Program-made: the position numbers and the translations under genes
Source of the DNA: Myxococcales bacterium
GTDB taxonomy: Bacteria; Myxococcota_A; Polyangia; Polyangiales; Polyangiaceae
DNA length: 38,220 nt
Assembly (NCBI GenBank): GCA_025351875.1
Contig: JANXVA010000263.1
Coordinates: 1-38,220, forward strand
Reading direction: 5' to 3'
Shown: in pieces, positions 31,633 to 38,220 of the stretch
Layout of the letters: every line of letters starts with the position of its first letter
How positions within the stretch are numbered: position 1 is the stretch's first letter
Notes under the pieces: model-generated
Seen by the model: only the letters and a program-made list of their open reading frames with translations
Told to the model about the DNA's origin: nothing
Databases searched by the model: none

Positions 31633-32481
31633 TCAGCGGATGTTGTTCAGATTCAGCATTTCCTCGACGTTCGGCTGAACGACGAGCTCGACGCGGCGGT
31701 TCTTCTTGCGGTCGTCATCCGACTGCTGAGGCGCCGTACCGGCGACCGGATCCGTCTCGCCGTAGCCCGCTGCGGCCCAGCGCGCCGGGTTGAGCCCGCC
31801 GCCGGAGGTCACCTTCGGGTTCTTCGGGTCCGTGGCCTTCGCCTCGCCGACGAGGAAGAGGAGGACCTGCCGCGCGCGCGCGAGAGAGAGGCCCCAGTTG
31901 TCCTTGAAGGTGCCGCCGGGCGGGTACTTCACGTTGTCGGTGTGACCGGCGACGAGGAAGTAGCGGTTCATCAGATCCTTGTCGCCGCGAATGACCTCGG
32001 CGACCTGACCGAGGACCTCCTTGCCGCTCGCCTTCAGCTCGTCCTTCCCGGAGTCGAAGAGGATGTCGCCCGGCAGCTGGATGACGAGGCGGTTGTTCCG
32101 GGGTACGACCTTGACGCCAATCGCGTTCAGCTTGTCGAGCTTCGAGCGAAGCTCGCGAAAGCGCTGCTCGATTACGGCGAGCTGGTCAGCACGCTGCTTG
32201 TACTCGGCGAGCGCCTGCGCGAGCCGCGCGGCGTCCTCCTTCGACTTCTCGAGGCCCAGGCCGGCGGCCCTGAGCTGCTCCTTCATCTTCTCGATCGAGT
32301 TCGATGCCTCGCTGAACTTCGCCTGATCATCGGCGATCTGCGCCTTCGCCGCCTTCAGGTCGGCCGAGAGCTTGTCGATCTCCCGCTGCTTCGTCGCCAT
32401 CTCCTCGTCGGTGTGTCCGCACCCTCCGAGAGCCAATGCGACCATCGCGACGCACAACCAGAGCCAAAGCTTCCTCATCAT
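31633..32481 (-). CDS. OmpA-family peptidoglycan-binding lipoprotein with coiled coil
   Basis: 282 residues. Signal peptide with lipobox LALGGC (Cys 21). Residues ~25-118 are a continuous coiled coil (KQREIDKLSADLKAAKAQIA through ADQLAVIEQRFRELRSKLDKL). The OmpA/MotB domain at about 130-270 has LPGDILFDSGKDELK, YFLVAGHTDNVKY (peptidoglycan-contacting Asp), WGLSLARARQVLLFL, AAGYGETDPVA and KKNRRVELVV. It ties the outer membrane to peptidoglycan. The start ATG ATG has GAGGAGGAC upstream; either may be used. A promoter candidate precedes it and a terminator follows, so it is likely monocistronic. Confidence 0.93.
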   Translation of the reverse strand: MMRKLWLWLCVAMVALALGGCGHTDEEMATKQREIDKLSADLKAAKAQIADDQAKFSEASNSIEKMKEQLRAAGLGLEKSKEDAARLAQALAEYKQRADQLAVIEQRFRELRSKLDKLNAIGVKVVPRNNRLVIQLPGDILFDSGKDELKASGKEVLGQVAEVIRGDKDLMNRYFLVAGHTDNVKYPPGGTFKDNWGLSLARARQVLLFLVGEAKATDPKNPKVTSGGGLNPARWAAAGYGETDPVAGTAPQQSDDDRKKNRRVELVVQPNVEEMLNLNNIR

Positions 32482-32939: not shown

Positions 32940-33233
32940 ATGGCTGCTAAGAAGAAGTCTGCGAAGAAGACCACGAAGTCCGCGAAGAAGCCCGCCGCCA
33001 AGACGGCGAAGAAGAAGGCGGCGAAGAAGCGCACTGCCAAGAAGGCCGCAAAAAAGGCCCCAGCTAGACGAGCCGCGCCCAAGGCTGCAAAAACTGGGCG
33101 GTCTGCGGCAAAGAAGTCGTCTGGCAAGCGTGGCGCAAGCCGCGGTGCCAAGTCGGCTCCGCCGGTCGGTGTTCCGTCGATGTTGGGCGGCGCCCCGACC
33201 TCCAGCGCTGGGCTGGATGCGGGCGAGGAGTAA
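32940..33233 (+). CDS. Histone H1-like Lys/Ala-rich DNA-binding protein
   Basis: 97 residues. Residues 1-75 are repeats of AAKK, SAKK and TAKK type (AAKKRTAKKAAKKAPARR), as in the C-terminal tail of histone H1 and bacterial H1-like proteins. The rest is SAPPVGVPSMLGGAPTSSAGL with an acidic end, GEE. It is expected to bind DNA non-specifically, neutralise charge and help compact the nucleoid. A strong promoter, AGGAGG ribosome site and robust terminator indicate high expression from a single-gene unit. Codon use is less GC-biased (AAG-rich), as the composition requires. Confidence 0.85.
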   Translation: MAAKKKSAKKTTKSAKKPAAKTAKKKAAKKRTAKKAAKKAPARRAAPKAAKTGRSAAKKSSGKRGASRGAKSAPPVGVPSMLGGAPTSSAGLDAGEE

Positions 33234-33367: not shown

Positions 33368-33623
33368 GCTGCGCTCCCCTCGGGAAATGCCTGCCCGTCT
33401 TGAGGTTGGGGCTGCGCTCCCCTCGGGAAATGCCTGTCCGTCTTGAGGTTGGGGCTGCGCTCCCCTCGGGAAATGCTGCCCGTTTTGAGGTTGGGGCTGC
33501 GCTCCCCTCGGGAAATGCTGCCCGTGTTGAGGTTGGGGCTGCGCTCCCCTCGGGAAATGCCTGCCCGTCTTGAGGTTGGGGCTGCGCTCCCCTCGGGAAA
33601 TGCCTGCCCGTCTTGACGTTGGG
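33368..33623. repeat. Six tandem copies of a 42-43-bp unit
   Basis: Unit starts GCTGCGCTCCCCTCGGGAAA and ends TTGAGGTTGGG. Copies: 33368-33410, 33411-33453, 33454-33495, 33496-33537, 33538-33580, 33581-33623 (43, 43, 42, 42, 43, 43 bp). The two 42-bp copies lack one C in the TGCCTGCCC stretch. Variation is limited to a few bases. The unit is not a multiple of three, arguing against a protein repeat. Confidence 0.95.
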
Positions 33624-33762
33624 GTGTCGGGTCTCGGGTCTCGGGGAGCGATGGGAACGGATGAGCTTGATTCGTCGTCGCTCTCCTCCTTAGAGGTAGT
33701 GACGGAGGCACTCGGCCGTTCAGGGGCGCTCAGGTGCGTAGCCTCTCGTGTGTCCAGGTACT

Positions 33763-35448
33763 CTACTGTCGTGCAGTGTGCGTTTGCTGGTCGCCCAGAT
33801 AGAGCTTCAGCGACTCCGCGGCGGCCCGGCGATCGAACGGAACGTCCTTCAGCTCGTCGCGCTGCCCGATCTGTTCGAAGAGCTCCGTGAGGAACGTGTG
33901 GAACCGCTCGGCCTCCGCCACCGCAGGTTCGAGACGCTGCGGATCGAGTAGATCGGTCTCCTCGAGCGCGGTGAGCGCGCCGATGAACGCATCGAACCTC
34001 GGATAGTCGGCGGCGCGCAGCAGCGGGTAGCCCATCGCGCGGAAGTACATGAGGAACTCGCGCACGAACTGGAGCGACGAGGGACCGCTCCAGCGGTCGT
34101 CGCGGCTCGGTGCAGAGCGCGCCTTCGCCCCGAATGCGCGGACGATCTGCGCGAACATCCAGACGTCGCGGCGGAGCCGGGTCGAGAGCGACCGGCGTGC
34201 GGCCGCGTCATCGAAGACGCCGTGCTCGTCGAGCCGTGCGCCGAGCGCCTTGCCGAGGACGAGCACGCCGTTCTGGAGGGCCGGCCGGAGGTTGGCCGAG
34301 ACCGATGCGACGGCCGCCCGCAACTGCTCGCTCGTCGCGGTGCCGTCGGCATGAGGGAGGTCGTGCTCGAACGTACGCCGGAGCTCGAGCCGCACGTTCG
34401 CGGCGATGCCGCCGAGCGTCGACTTGATGGTGAGGAGGCGATGCGATTCGGCCATCATCTCGTCGTATTTTGCGGCGATCTGGGATGCCGGGATCTTGAA
34501 GAGCTCGCGCTCGTAGCTGTCGGCGAGCTGCTCGCCGGCCTGCTTGCGCAGGTAGTCCGTCAGCGCGCGCGCGTCCGAGCGGAGCACGCTCAGGATCAAG
34601 AACACGACCCCGGCCGGTCGCGGCTCCCGGACCACCTGCTCGAGGAGCGCGAGGTAGCGAAGCATCCGGAACAGCGAGAGGAAGGTGAGCGCGACGAGAC
34701 GGCGGGCCTGCTCGCCAGGCACCTGTCGCATCAACTCGAGGACGCGGAGGTTCGTGATCCGGTCGAACTCGGGGCGGAACTCGAGGGCCGTCAGCGGGTT
34801 GAAGAACGCCGACTGGGAGACCTCCCGGTGTGCCACCGAGAGCGTGGCGTAGAAGAGCCGGAACGGAACGCGCGGCAGCCTGGTCACTCCGCCGGTCACC
34901 TCGAGCAGGTTGGTGAGCGCGTGGCGCAGGAGGAAGAGCGACTCCTCGGGCGTGTCCTGCGTCATCGTTCCGCGGACGAGCCGGGAGCGCGCGCTGTCGT
35001 CGGGCAGCAGCATCTCGAGGTAGCGCTGGAAGACGAACGCGCGCTCCCGCTCACCGAGCAGGAGGCGACAGAGGGCAACCACGCGTGTCATGCCGTCGCG
35101 AGCGATGGCGAGCGCCTCGCGGTAATCCTGCGAGACGATCGCGGAGCGCTTCGGCGCGCCGGGGTGGTTGCGCGGGTTCGCGAAGCAGGCGAGGCCCTTC
35201 AGGAGCACCTCGAGCTCGAAGAGCGTCTCGTCGCGGCGGTTCTCGGGGAGCCGCGCCACCCACTGCTCCCGCGCGTGCGCCTGCTCACGCCTCAGCCCGC
35301 GCGTGTCGCGCAGGAGGTCGGAGTACGCGTCGGCCGGGCCCGGCGGGATCGACCGCGGCGCGCGGGGGTCGATCGACGCGAACGCTGCGACCGACCTCGG
35401 AGGCATCGACGCCGGAGGCCCCGCGTCGCCGCGCACCGAACGACTCAC
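33763..35448 (-). CDS. Large all-helical protein of unknown function
   Basis: 561 residues, Arg/Leu/Ala/Glu-rich, predicted mostly helical, with no signal peptide. Notable segments are LFELEVLLKGLACFANPRNH, DYREALAIARDGMTRVVALC, VVFLILSVLRSDARALTDYL and FVREFLMYFRAMGYPLL. I do not recognise a domain. Its ATG overlaps the TrmB-type regulator's stop by 4 bp (ATGA), so the two are translated together and may act together. Antisense frames of over 500 codons are shadows. Confidence 0.75.
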   Translation of the reverse strand: MSRSVRGDAGPPASMPPRSVAAFASIDPRAPRSIPPGPADAYSDLLRDTRGLRREQAHAREQWVARLPENRRDETLFELEVLLKGLACFANPRNHPGAPKRSAIVSQDYREALAIARDGMTRVVALCRLLLGERERAFVFQRYLEMLLPDDSARSRLVRGTMTQDTPEESLFLLRHALTNLLEVTGGVTRLPRVPFRLFYATLSVAHREVSQSAFFNPLTALEFRPEFDRITNLRVLELMRQVPGEQARRLVALTFLSLFRMLRYLALLEQVVREPRPAGVVFLILSVLRSDARALTDYLRKQAGEQLADSYERELFKIPASQIAAKYDEMMAESHRLLTIKSTLGGIAANVRLELRRTFEHDLPHADGTATSEQLRAAVASVSANLRPALQNGVLVLGKALGARLDEHGVFDDAAARRSLSTRLRRDVWMFAQIVRAFGAKARSAPSRDDRWSGPSSLQFVREFLMYFRAMGYPLLRAADYPRFDAFIGALTALEETDLLDPQRLEPAVAEAERFHTFLTELFEQIGQRDELKDVPFDRRAAAESLKLYLGDQQTHTARQ

Positions 35449-36323
35449 GGCGACGCCTTGGCTCGTGGTCCGCGGCCCCCGGTGCCCGAGTCACCGGCCT
35501 TCGGGGCACGGCCTTCCTCGCGCTTCGTGAGCAGCGTGTCGAGGCGTCCGACACGCGGACCGAGCATCTTCGCCATGACGCCCTCGATGTCGCGCCCGGT
35601 GCGCTGGGTGAGGAGCGTGATGTCGAGCGCGACCTGGCTCGTGACGATCTCGGCGATCGCGGTCGTCTCGCTGATCACGGCGGCGTCGAGGTCGCCCATC
35701 TCCGTGGCGCCGATGAGCGAGCGCTTGTCGTCCGCGACGACGACGAGGCGGTGCTTCCAGAACTCCTCGAGGCCCTTTTCCTCGAGGCCGTAGCTGAAGA
35801 CCTCGCCCGGGAGCGGTGGCAGCTCGGCGTGGGAGAAGACGACGATGTAGACCTTGCGCTTGGCCGCGCGCTTCAGCTCGGCGGTGATCTGCTCGATCTC
35901 CCGCGGCCAGCCGCTGAGGACGAGCCGATGTTGCGCGCCTCGGATGAGCCGCTCGGCCTCCTCGAGGATCCGCTGGTAGCCGCGGACGCTGAACGCATCA
36001 GGCGCGGGCGGCGAGGTGTCGATGCTGCGAATGGCCGTCTCCAGCTGCTCGGTGGAGGTGTCGAAGCGCTTTCGCAGCAGCACGAGGAGATCCTCGGCGG
36101 CGGCCGGAGCGAAGCGCTCCGGAGTGCCGGCGATCGACCTCGCCGCGCCGGCCTTCACGAGGCGACGGAGGACGCCGTAGACCGCGGAGCGCGGGATCTG
36201 CGCGCGCACGCCGACCTCGTAGCCCGTGGCAGGACTGTCCTGGAGTAGCGCGGCATACGCGCGCGACTCGTTCAGGCTGAAGCCCAAGGCCACGAGGGCG
36301 GGCACGACATCGGGTTCAGCCAT
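35445..36323 (-). CDS. TrmB-family transcriptional regulator
   Basis: 292 residues. The N-terminal winged helix of TrmB type (about 1-80) has VPALVALGFSLNESRAYAAL, GYEVGVRAQIPRSAVYGVLRRL and RFAPAAAEDLL. A helical hinge follows, then a C-terminal TrmB sensor-like region (LIRGAQHRLVLSGWPREIEQ, KVYIVVFSHAELPPLPGEVF, FWKHRLVVVADDKRSLIGATE). Family members are sugar- or redox-responsive regulators, mainly archaeal but also in bacteria. The ligand is unknown here. It is divergent from the bufferin-type cluster across 83 bp and coupled to the helical unknown gene. ATG 36323 was chosen over upstream in-frame ATGs because TrmB similarity starts right after it. Confidence 0.88.
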   Translation of the reverse strand: MAEPDVVPALVALGFSLNESRAYAALLQDSPATGYEVGVRAQIPRSAVYGVLRRLVKAGAARSIAGTPERFAPAAAEDLLVLLRKRFDTSTEQLETAIRSIDTSPPAPDAFSVRGYQRILEEAERLIRGAQHRLVLSGWPREIEQITAELKRAAKRKVYIVVFSHAELPPLPGEVFSYGLEEKGLEEFWKHRLVVVADDKRSLIGATEMGDLDAAVISETTAIAEIVTSQVALDITLLTQRTGRDIEGVMAKMLGPRVGRLDTLLTKREEGRAPKAGDSGTGGRGPRAKASP

Positions 36324-36406: not shown

Positions 36407-36661
36407 ATGAAGCTCGGCAAGGTTCTGGCGACGACCGCGGTCTCGGGAATGCTGGCTGCCCTCTCGGGCTGCGCCGGCGGTGCGCAGGCTGCCCCGCCGA
36501 CCAAGGCGCCTTCCACGGATGTGCCCGCGATCGGCGAGAAGAACTGCTGCAAGGGCCGGAACGCCTGCAAGGGCAAGAGCGGCTGCAAGGGTGAGACGAA
36601 CGCGGCCTGCGCTGGCCAGAACGACTGCAAGGGCAAGGGCACGTCGTGCCCTCGGGGGTGA
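36407..36661 (+). CDS. bufA: Bufferin-like Cys-rich precursor peptide (MNIO substrate)
   Basis: 84 residues. The signal peptide contains VSGMLAALSGC and AGGAQAAPP, so either lipidation at Cys 22 or Sec cleavage after AQA is possible. The mature part is Lys/Gly/Cys-rich: NCCKGRNACKGKSGCKGE, then NAACAGQNDCKGKGTSC, with seven Cys spaced in CKGK-like repeats. Its size, export signal, Cys pattern and position directly before a DUF692 gene match bufferin (BufA)-type precursors, whose Cys are oxidatively modified to bind copper. The exact BufA subclass is uncertain. No clear ribosome site lies before the ATG. It is divergent from the TrmB-family regulator. Confidence 0.8.
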   Translation: MKLGKVLATTAVSGMLAALSGCAGGAQAAPPTKAPSTDVPAIGEKNCCKGRNACKGKSGCKGETNAACAGQNDCKGKGTSCPRG

Positions 36662-36692
36662 GCCTCCGGCCCCAGGAGGGGCCGCCGTTCCA

Positions 36693-37544
36693 ATGAGCTA
36701 CCGAGCGCGACACGCCATCCCCGATCTGGGCGTCGGGGTCGGCTTCCGCGTGCCGCATCATGGGCGGGTCCTCGACGAGCGGCCGCCCATGGGCTGGTTC
36801 GAGGTCATCAGCGAGAACTTCATGGTGGCGGGCGGTCGCCCCCTCGACAACCTCGCGCGGCTGAAGGACAGCTACCCCGTCGTTCCCCACGGCGTGTCTC
36901 TCGCCATCGGCTCGGTCGAGCCGCTCGACACGGACCATCTCACCCGACTCCGCGCGCTCGTCGATCGACTCGACCCGCCGTGGGTGTCGGACCACCTTTG
37001 CTGGGGGCGAGCGCCCGGGCTCCATCTCCACGACCTCTTGCCGCTCCCGTACACGCGCGAGGCCGTGGACCTCGTCGTCGAGCGCGTGAAGCGCGTCCAG
37101 GGCACGCTGGAGCGCCCCTTCGCGCTCGAGAACGTGTCGAGCTACATGACGTACCGCGCGAGCTCGATGAGCGAGTGGGAGTTCGTTACCGAGGTGGTCG
37201 AGCGCGCCGACTGCGGACTGCTCCTCGACTGCAACAACGTCTACGTGTCCGCGCGAAACCACGGCTTCGATCCCGACCGCTACATCGATGCGATCCCCGC
37301 AGACCGCGTCGTGCAGATGCACCTGGCCGGGCACACCGACAAGGGCACCTATGTGCTCGACACCCATGCCGAGCCCGTCTGCGACGAGGTCTGGGCGCTC
37401 TATCGTCGCGCGGTCGCGCGCTGCGGCGCGGTCGCGACGCTCGTCGAGTGGGACGACGAGATCCCCGCCTGGGAGGTCCTCGCCGGCGAGGCCGACCGCG
37501 CGCGTATCATGCGCGCCGACGTCCTCGCACGGAGCGTCGCGTGA
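36693..37544 (+). CDS. bufB: DUF692 / MNIO enzyme (BufB-like)
   Basis: 283 residues, the usual MNIO length. TIM-barrel of DUF692 (PF05114). Candidate iron ligands sit in recognisable strings: FEVISENFM, VPHGVSLAIGS, VSDHLCWG, FALENVSSYM, LLLDCNNVYVSARNHG, VQMHLAGHTD, LDTHAEPV and LVEWDDEIP. MNIOs (founder MbnB) use a two- or three-iron centre and O2 to rework Cys side chains of a peptide. Here the peptide is very likely the preceding gene. ATG 36693 has AGGAGGGG upstream at slightly long spacing; the frame opens at 36480 but overlaps bufA. Cytoplasmic. Confidence 0.95.
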   Translation: MSYRARHAIPDLGVGVGFRVPHHGRVLDERPPMGWFEVISENFMVAGGRPLDNLARLKDSYPVVPHGVSLAIGSVEPLDTDHLTRLRALVDRLDPPWVSDHLCWGRAPGLHLHDLLPLPYTREAVDLVVERVKRVQGTLERPFALENVSSYMTYRASSMSEWEFVTEVVERADCGLLLDCNNVYVSARNHGFDPDRYIDAIPADRVVQMHLAGHTDKGTYVLDTHAEPVCDEVWALYRRAVARCGAVATLVEWDDEIPAWEVLAGEADRARIMRADVLARSVA

Positions 37545-38220
37545 GCCTCGTCGACATGCAGCGGTCGCTCGCCGACATCCTGCGCCGAGCGTCGCCCGTG
37601 GCTTCCGACGTCGCGAGCACGGCCCTCGCCGACGGGATCGCCTCCGGAAACGAGCGTCTGACGCCCGCGATGCAGCTCGACATCTACCGCGAACAGTTCT
37701 TCCTCCGGCACCTCGACGTGCTGCGCGAGGATTTTCGCTCCCTCGCACACCTCCTCGGCGACGAGACGTTCGAAGCGCTCGCAACCGCCTATTTACAGGC
37801 ATTTCCTTCACGTTCGTTCACCCTGCGCGACCTCGGAGCCGACCTCGTCCGGTTCGTCGCGACCGCGCCGCGGTGGGCGGACGACGCGCTCCTCGCCGAT
37901 CTGGGGCGGGTCGAGTGGGCCTTCGTCGAGTGTTTCGACGCGCCCTCTGCGCCCGCGCTCGCCCTCGCTGACCTCGAAGGCGTTCCCGAGGAGGCGTGGC
38001 CGTCCGCAATCGTCGTCCTCCAGCCGTCCGTCCAGCGCCTGACCCTCCGTCACGCCGCGCACGACTACCGGCTCGCGATCCGAAACGGCGAGGCTGTCCT
38101 TGGCCGACCGGAGGCGCGTCCTTCCCAGGTCGTCGTCTTCCGGGGGCCGACGGCCCTCCAGTGTCTCGACCTCGAGCACGACGCCTACGCGCTGCTCGAC
38201 GAGCTCGCGCGCGGAGCGCC
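37541..38220 (+). CDS. bufC: DUF2063 partner protein (BufC-like), 3' end outside window
   Basis: 226 codons visible. GTG 37541 overlaps the bufB stop (GTGA). The N-terminal DUF2063 (PF09836) domain has the usual pattern MQLDIYREQFFLRHLDVLRE, LAHLLGDETFEALATAYLQ and FPSRSFTLRDLGADLVRF, then ADDALLADLGRVEWAFVE. The region after about residue 140 is the less-conserved C-terminal domain. In bufferin and Hvf clusters this protein binds the precursor and delivers it to the MNIO, as MbnC does for MbnB. The rest of the gene and any membrane partner (BufD, DoxX-like) or regulator would lie beyond the edge. Confidence 0.92.
   Translation, partial: MSLVDMQRSLADILRRASPVASDVASTALADGIASGNERLTPAMQLDIYREQFFLRHLDVLREDFRSLAHLLGDETFEALATAYLQAFPSRSFTLRDLGADLVRFVATAPRWADDALLADLGRVEWAFVECFDAPSAPALALADLEGVPEEAWPSAIVVLQPSVQRLTLRHAAHDYRLAIRNGEAVLGRPEARPSQVVVFRGPTALQCLDLEHDAYALLDELARGA

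Follow-up and report, generated by a model that had tools for sequence, protein, structure and literature searches.

A probable lipoprotein-type bufferin cluster in a Myxococcales bacterium, with a predicted signal peptide kept and a core exchanged among its relatives

Introduction

Three genes at the right end of a Myxococcales contig raise the question of which cysteine-rich peptide they produce, and which part of its precursor would be recognised by the accompanying enzymes. The window, which is the whole stretch of DNA analysed here, is an entire contig (C667; 38,220 bp) from an 8.9 Mb assembly in 805 contigs. A first-pass annotation had described a Cys-rich exported peptide, a DUF692 enzyme and a DUF2063 protein in this order, with a 4-bp overlap, and had taken them for a bufferin-type cluster of an MNIO and a DUF2063 protein.

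For comparison we used the accessible parts of three papers (PMC12452194, PMC13097082 and PMC12636315). Bufferins are described in PMC12452194 as copper chelators that carry thiooxazoles and aid growth under copper stress. Six Cys are reported there in 90% of Buf2, and about 16% of Buf2 are predicted lipoproteins. According to PMC12636315, lipidation of the MNIO products DybA and NedA was shown experimentally, and the EGKCG lipoprotein NedA was isolated in a tri-acylated form.

Results

The open reading frames agreed with the described gene order and overlap. The first gene, bufA (36407..36661, plus strand), is a complete ORF that starts with ATG and encodes a precursor of 84 aa. It is followed after a gap of 31 bp by bufB (36693..37544, plus strand), also complete, which encodes an MNIO (DUF692) oxidase of 283 aa. 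The third gene, bufC (37541..38220, plus strand), starts with a GTG at 37541 and overlaps the stop codon of bufB by 4 bp within a GTGA; 226 aa of this DUF2063 partner with a predicted RRE fold are seen, and its C-terminus is missing at the contig end. Because the window is a whole contig, this truncation is caused by the assembly. The gene found downstream of bufC in a related locus (L037) was sought in the window's genome to locate the next contig, and nothing was found. An Rfam search gave no match. A tandem 18-bp unit is located at 36539-36591, overlapping the part that codes for the BufA core.

Upstream of bufA lies a divergent gene for a TrmB-like regulator (35445..36323, minus strand; PF01978, 59 bits). 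As a dedicated regulator of the cluster this neighbour was rejected, as it was also present in four genomes without a BufB match (G015, G016, G023 and G062). Of the 98 genomes in the family to which the window belongs, 34 carry it. The stretch separating it from bufA was little conserved in five loci (mean column identity 45%). It is probably not specific to the bufABC cluster. Elsewhere in the window we observed a 43-bp tandem repeat with six copies and 96% matches (33368-33624), and an ORF of 97 aa, rich in Lys and Ala and built of AAKK repeats (32940-33233), which presumably resembles a histone H1-like tail.

Profile searches were in line with a bufferin-type cluster. BufB matched PF05114 with 370.4 bits (cut-off 25), exceeded the cut-off of the NCBIfam BufB model NF050167 (368.5 bits, cut-off 310) and matched the PDB entry 3bww (E 1.5e-44), and BufC matched PF09836 with 64.7 bits (cut-off 27.2). 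PF05114 and PF09836 are the two families whose absence would have spoken against the first-pass reading, which therefore withstood this check. With the HvfC model BufC scored 30.7 bits against a cut-off of 142. The RRE half, represented in Pfam by NGO1945_C, gave no match with BufC of the window and 21.3 bits (cut-off 27) with BufC of L037, and PDB sequence searches with BufC found none. Because NGO1945_C fails to match, the RRE assignment rests on a structural model. This AlphaFold2 model, built from an alignment of 17 rows, had a mean pLDDT of 87.6, and among the 91 structures returned by Foldseek three had E ≤ 0.001, namely TglI (8hci_A and 8hi7_A) and NGO1945 (3dee). By the model, BufC is predicted to be a PME-type 1 partner, with DUF2063 fused to an RRE domain, seen here without its C-terminus. 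It thus shares its predicted fold with TglHI (8hci, 8hi7) and NGO1945 (3dee), and the MNIO of TglHI is related to BufB in sequence. The substrate of TglHI, a pearlin enzyme, differs from BufA in lacking a signal peptide and is modified at a C-terminal Cys (PMC12452194).

The precursor BufA consists of a signal peptide with the lipobox LSGC22 (residues 1-22; 36407..36472, plus strand), which is predicted by pattern and is the conserved part in the family, an Ala/Pro-rich linker (residues 23-46) and a core from Cys47 to Cys81 (36545..36649, plus strand; CCKGRNACKGKSGCKGETNAACAGQNDCKGKGTSC). By its lipobox BufA looks like a lipoprotein, a feature that the first-pass annotation had overlooked. Core Cys were found at positions 47, 48, 54, 60, 68, 74 and 81, where C48, C54, C60, C68, C74 and C81 form a six-Cys set of the Buf2 type and Cys47 is an extra adjacent one. 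Mature BufA contains the 5-mer NACKG and four CKG triplets, a number that was reached in 0 of 20,000 composition shuffles. A Pfam search with BufA gave no family at E 0.1, hence no DUF2282 (PF10048), which bears out the earlier statement that the precursor is not a standard BufA1. The same annotation had regarded the CKGK peptide as a new kind, and this did not hold, since the Cys-Lys (Buf2) class is already described in PMC12452194 and PMC13097082.

BufA matched the NCBIfam model BufA2 (NF050166) with 33.2 bits (E 4.5e-8), below the curated cut-off of 60. When the scoring was extended to ten further precursors, 29.7 bits were obtained for the type found in L013 and L037, 28.6 for L039, 29.8 for L012, 43.4 for a paralogue in the window's own genome (C455), 63.7 for L061 and 84.9 for the Thiogranum precursor; the four Lys-poor precursors tried gave no match. 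By sequence we place the cluster in the Buf2/Cys-Lys class, in a lipoprotein branch that scores below the BufA2 cut-off. It has a bufferin-group MNIO, the order precursor-MNIO-partner, an export signal (by pattern) and six Cys with Cys-Lys motifs, and BufA has neither the BufA2 equivalog score (60 bits) nor the DUF2282 that marks Buf1.

With the Buf2 bufferins (Buf_6/12Cys; NF050166; PMC12452194) the cluster shares the bufABC order, an exported precursor, a six-Cys core and a DUF2063-RRE partner. It differs from them in the score of BufA (33 bits), in the extra Cys beside the first core Cys, in the last core Cys, which comes six residues after the fifth, and in that no DoxX gene was seen at the locus, where the contig ends in bufC. 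With the Cys-Lys group of the captophorins, which was modelled rather than assayed in PMC13097082, it shares core Cys followed by Lys (NACKG) and an Asp after the catalytic Asp. The same paper lists NACKG among common 5-mers tried on the enzyme FonBC, which left it unprocessed, and the words lipoprotein and signal peptide are absent from its main text. DybA and NedA are MNIO substrates with a signal peptidase II signal, as BufA is predicted to be, but DybA is of the ChrH type and NedA of the EGKCG type, and neither is Buf2 (PMC12636315). EGKCG repeats, a trait of the Oxazolin / EGKCG group, are absent from the window's sequence. BufA gave no match with plasmids.

The nearest named loci were found in two Labilithrix MAGs (L037 and L038) and one Myxococcales MAG (L039). 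In these the order bufA-bufB-bufC was identical, and identities to the window were 65, 67 and 59% for BufA, 79, 78 and 70% for BufB, and 54, 58 and 53% for BufC, respectively. The lipobox and the core were present in all three BufA homologues, and genes matching the TrmB-like gene and the gene for a 561-aa protein were located upstream. Because the order recurs in these loci, bufABC is no chance assembly. Nor is the system a stray, as a BufB-type match was obtained in 80 of the 98 family genomes and exceeded the cut-off in 72. In the class (240 genomes, family members included) the corresponding numbers were 165 and 86. The gene 3' of bufC varied among relatives. L041, L049 and L070 have UPF0047 there and L037 has a methyltransferase; L112 encodes an AraC-type regulator at this place and L038, on the opposite strand, a TonB_C protein.

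The window's genome contains two further MNIO loci (C455 and C801) that had escaped the first-pass annotation, giving three MNIOs and three putative precursors in all. The C455 locus has a CKG lipoprotein precursor. In the third locus (C801; L006, 3020-8558) the lipoprotein precursor has CGAG motifs and gave no family in an NCBIfam search, and the partner protein combines NGO1945_C with DUF2063.

DoxX (BufD) genes are frequent in bufferin clusters, in varying combinations. Four DoxX matches were detected in the window's genome, none of them on a contig with an MNIO, with the window contig ending inside bufC. At least one was detected in 9 of 10 relatives' genomes, and in one of the ten (L112; 3569-4048, minus strand) it was located near the cluster, divergent from bufA and about 1.6 kb before it with one ORF between; this locus is a relative of the C455 paralogue and not of the window's cluster. 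In the stretches examined of the other nine, including the three closest, DoxX was not found. Translation of three coordinate coincidences in L039 and L041 showed that none of them is DoxX.

To judge how strongly the signal peptide is conserved, we compared BufA with a control lipoprotein, matched in the window at 32299-32478 (minus strand); orthologues of both were available in 12 genomes. Over the 19 residues that precede the lipobox Cys, mean pairwise identity reached 0.58 in BufA as against 0.34 in the control, and BufA was higher in 63 of 66 pairs, which are not independent. In the first 30 mature residues the relation was reversed (0.43 and 0.59; 12 genomes). The contrast is understated, because the query for the control orthologues included the signal peptide. 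BamD as a control gave a weaker contrast in 10 genomes (signal peptide 0.55 for BufA and 0.41 for BamD; BufA higher in 31 of 45 pairs); a usable signal peptide was available at 17 of 30 loci for BamD and at 28 of 30 for the first control lipoprotein. No genome among the 98 reached the cut-off of the Pal profile, which had also been considered for a control. Signal-peptide identity across the full set of 47 BufA genomes was 0.46, and 0.29 after shuffling; L122, L243, L260 and L263 had been excluded before counting.

The subclade of the window has 18 tree rows. Two named loci and two unlabelled rows were excluded, and the comparison covered the other 14, of which 6 are Cys-Lys and 8 Lys-poor. 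Signal-peptide identity was 0.59 and 0.60 within the Cys-Lys and Lys-poor groups and 0.53 between them; in the whole mature parts the two within-group values were 0.67 and 0.56, and the between-group value was 0.37. On a BufB tree of 79 rows made with a quick method, 67 of them labelled for core type, the core type required at least six changes, three of which were forced by well-supported branches; the total fell to four changes once four rows with six-Cys cores under the second label were omitted. Judged from these sequences, the relatives appear to retain the signal peptide, and the core to have switched about four times between the Cys-Lys and Lys-poor types. This pattern of a conserved signal peptide and an exchanged core is, on sequence evidence, what is new here.

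The enzyme was examined for a corresponding change. According to PMC13097082, MNIOs of the Cys-Lys group have an Asp directly after the catalytic Asp, and in the alignment BufB has D254-D255 at the catalytic-base/selectivity site. Of the 66 rows with both traits, Cys-Lys cores went with Asp in 38 and without it in 10, and other cores with Asp in 3 and without it in 15. When phylogeny was taken into account, three independent pairs on supported branches remained (p about 0.25). With the six-Cys cores of few CK (L042, L053, L117 and L121) left out, the other cores numbered 3 and 11, with two pairs; three of the 15 remaining Lys-poor precursors (L021, L023 and L025) have one CK each. L038, with a BufB 78% identical to that of the window, has Glu at this site, yet a Cys-Lys core. 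Because several CKG-type relatives, including the C455 paralogue, have Ala instead of Asp, the residue is not diagnostic. Its association with the Cys-Lys core type is suggestive only, and with few independent pairs the residue was not upheld as proof of core type.

We also determined how common the lipoprotein signal is, calling the lipobox by pattern rather than by SignalP or experiment. Precursors were selected by rule (a signal-like N-terminus, Cys, and a position upstream of bufB), and a few, such as L029 and L172, are visibly wrong. Of the 71 distinct precursors that came from the window's family or from eleven named myxobacterial loci, 61 had a lipobox, as compared to 11 of 62 elsewhere; in other families of the class it was present in 9 of 32. 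A motif within the signal peptide, A[AVS].G[LMIV], was defined post hoc from sequences already seen. It occurred in 53 of the same 71 precursors (5.8 in shuffles), in 20 of the 62 others (5.3 in shuffles) and in none of the control lipoproteins (0 of 17 and 0 of 28, three of the 28 being probably mispredicted). A pre-specified hold-out from other families of the class (57 loci, 32 distinct precursors selected by the same rule) gave 3 of 32 as compared to 1.7 in shuffles. The motif was thus rejected as a universal signal-peptide motif: it does not characterise bufferins in general and, by the hold-out, is limited to the window's family.

Some precursors outside the window's group had other features. 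A twin-arginine-like N-terminus, RRx[FLVI], was observed in 13 of the 62 distinct precursors there (L058, L061, L065, L066, L072, L075, L080, L083, L084, L091, L097, L100 and L116), for example MDRRKFTQVMGAAVAGMVAG. We take 11 of the 13 records to be named Acidobacteria or groups belonging to them. These N-termini suggest export by Tat and not by Sec, and such export could serve as a check of finished modification. The term twin-arginine is absent from the accessible text of PMC12452194 and PMC13097082, and a literature search combining bufferin with twin-arginine returned nothing, a weak negative as subscription papers are mostly outside its scope. The putative precursor L080, from a Blastocatellia MAG, combines the RR N-terminus with an extended array of SCKGEKA repeats. 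Two other putative precursors, L320 and L326, are encoded upstream of MNIO genes and consist of numerous repeats resembling AGCPGTS or TAGCPTA; these are unlike the cores named in the accessible parts of PMC12452194, PMC13097082 and PMC12636315.

Discussion

The three genes most probably form a Buf2-type bufferin cluster of the lipoprotein, membrane-anchored kind, which would produce a modified Cys peptide that sequesters copper. Gene order, enzyme and partner families, partner fold, lipobox, core motif and family conservation are read directly from sequence or from the model. From these we infer that BufA is modified, and by what chemistry, as well as its lipidation, cell location and copper function. 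BufA would be synthesised in the cytoplasm and held by BufC (DUF2063 and RRE), probably via the signal peptide. BufB, an iron-dependent MNIO, would oxidise at least one Cys of the CKG motifs to a 5-thiooxazole. The modified peptide would then exit by Sec, be acylated at Cys22 and be cleaved by signal peptidase II. It would stay tethered to the membrane through the flexible Ala/Pro linker, and its thiooxazole and thiol groups would sequester excess periplasmic copper.

Instead of copper, the same modified lipopeptide might counter a different metal (zinc or mercury) or a stress (oxidative or sulphur stress). MerC fusions are reported in PMC12452194, where other metals are suggested, and no copper gene was identified beside the window's cluster among the flanking proteins scanned (the TrmB-like and the 561-aa protein). 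We consider this unlikely, as bufferins are described as copper chelators in the same paper and the C801 locus encodes a copper-type ATPase (TIGR01511, 524 bits, cut-off 397) at a distance of about 1 kb from its precursor, with a single gene in between. It is still less probable that BufA is an unmodified, metallothionein-like Cys-rich lipoprotein and that the MNIO has another substrate: some precursor genes have no MNIO linked to them (PMC12452194) and this genome offers three MNIOs and three putative precursors, but the precursor gene lies just ahead of bufB and the precursor-enzyme-partner order is kept in relatives. A released, methanobactin-like copper scavenger (chalkophore) in place of a tethered buffer, which membership in the MNIO family would allow, is hardly credible given the common lipobox in the family, the MbnB model score of BufB (56 bits, cut-off 325) and five scanned window proteins with neither exporter nor importer.

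For the tethered, copper-sequestering bufferin, the simplest reading of the conserved signal peptide and the exchanged core is that the precursor is organised into leader and core and that the signal peptide acts as the leader. Preliminary Buf1 data mentioned in PMC12452194 likewise assign the signal peptide to the recognition sequence. We tentatively propose, with some doubt, that the lipoprotein signal peptide doubles as a RiPP leader for BufB and BufC, and that the core, either six-Cys Cys-Lys or short Lys-poor Cys repeats (CSG, CSA, CNG, CGG), is wholly replaceable, perhaps to suit different metals, the enzyme residue that follows the catalytic Asp changing in step with it. The enzyme pair would then tolerate replacement of the core because the signal peptide is the leader.

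Taken alone, the window's locus is one additional bufferin cluster. It belongs to a branch that is overlooked by automatic naming, with BufA below the BufA2 cut-off and four Lys-poor precursors unmatched. PMC12452194 states that some mechanism must block export of the precursor before modification. For this question in Buf2-type lipoproteins the window's family would be a natural comparison, with a shared putative leader, differing cores and a single enzyme lineage.
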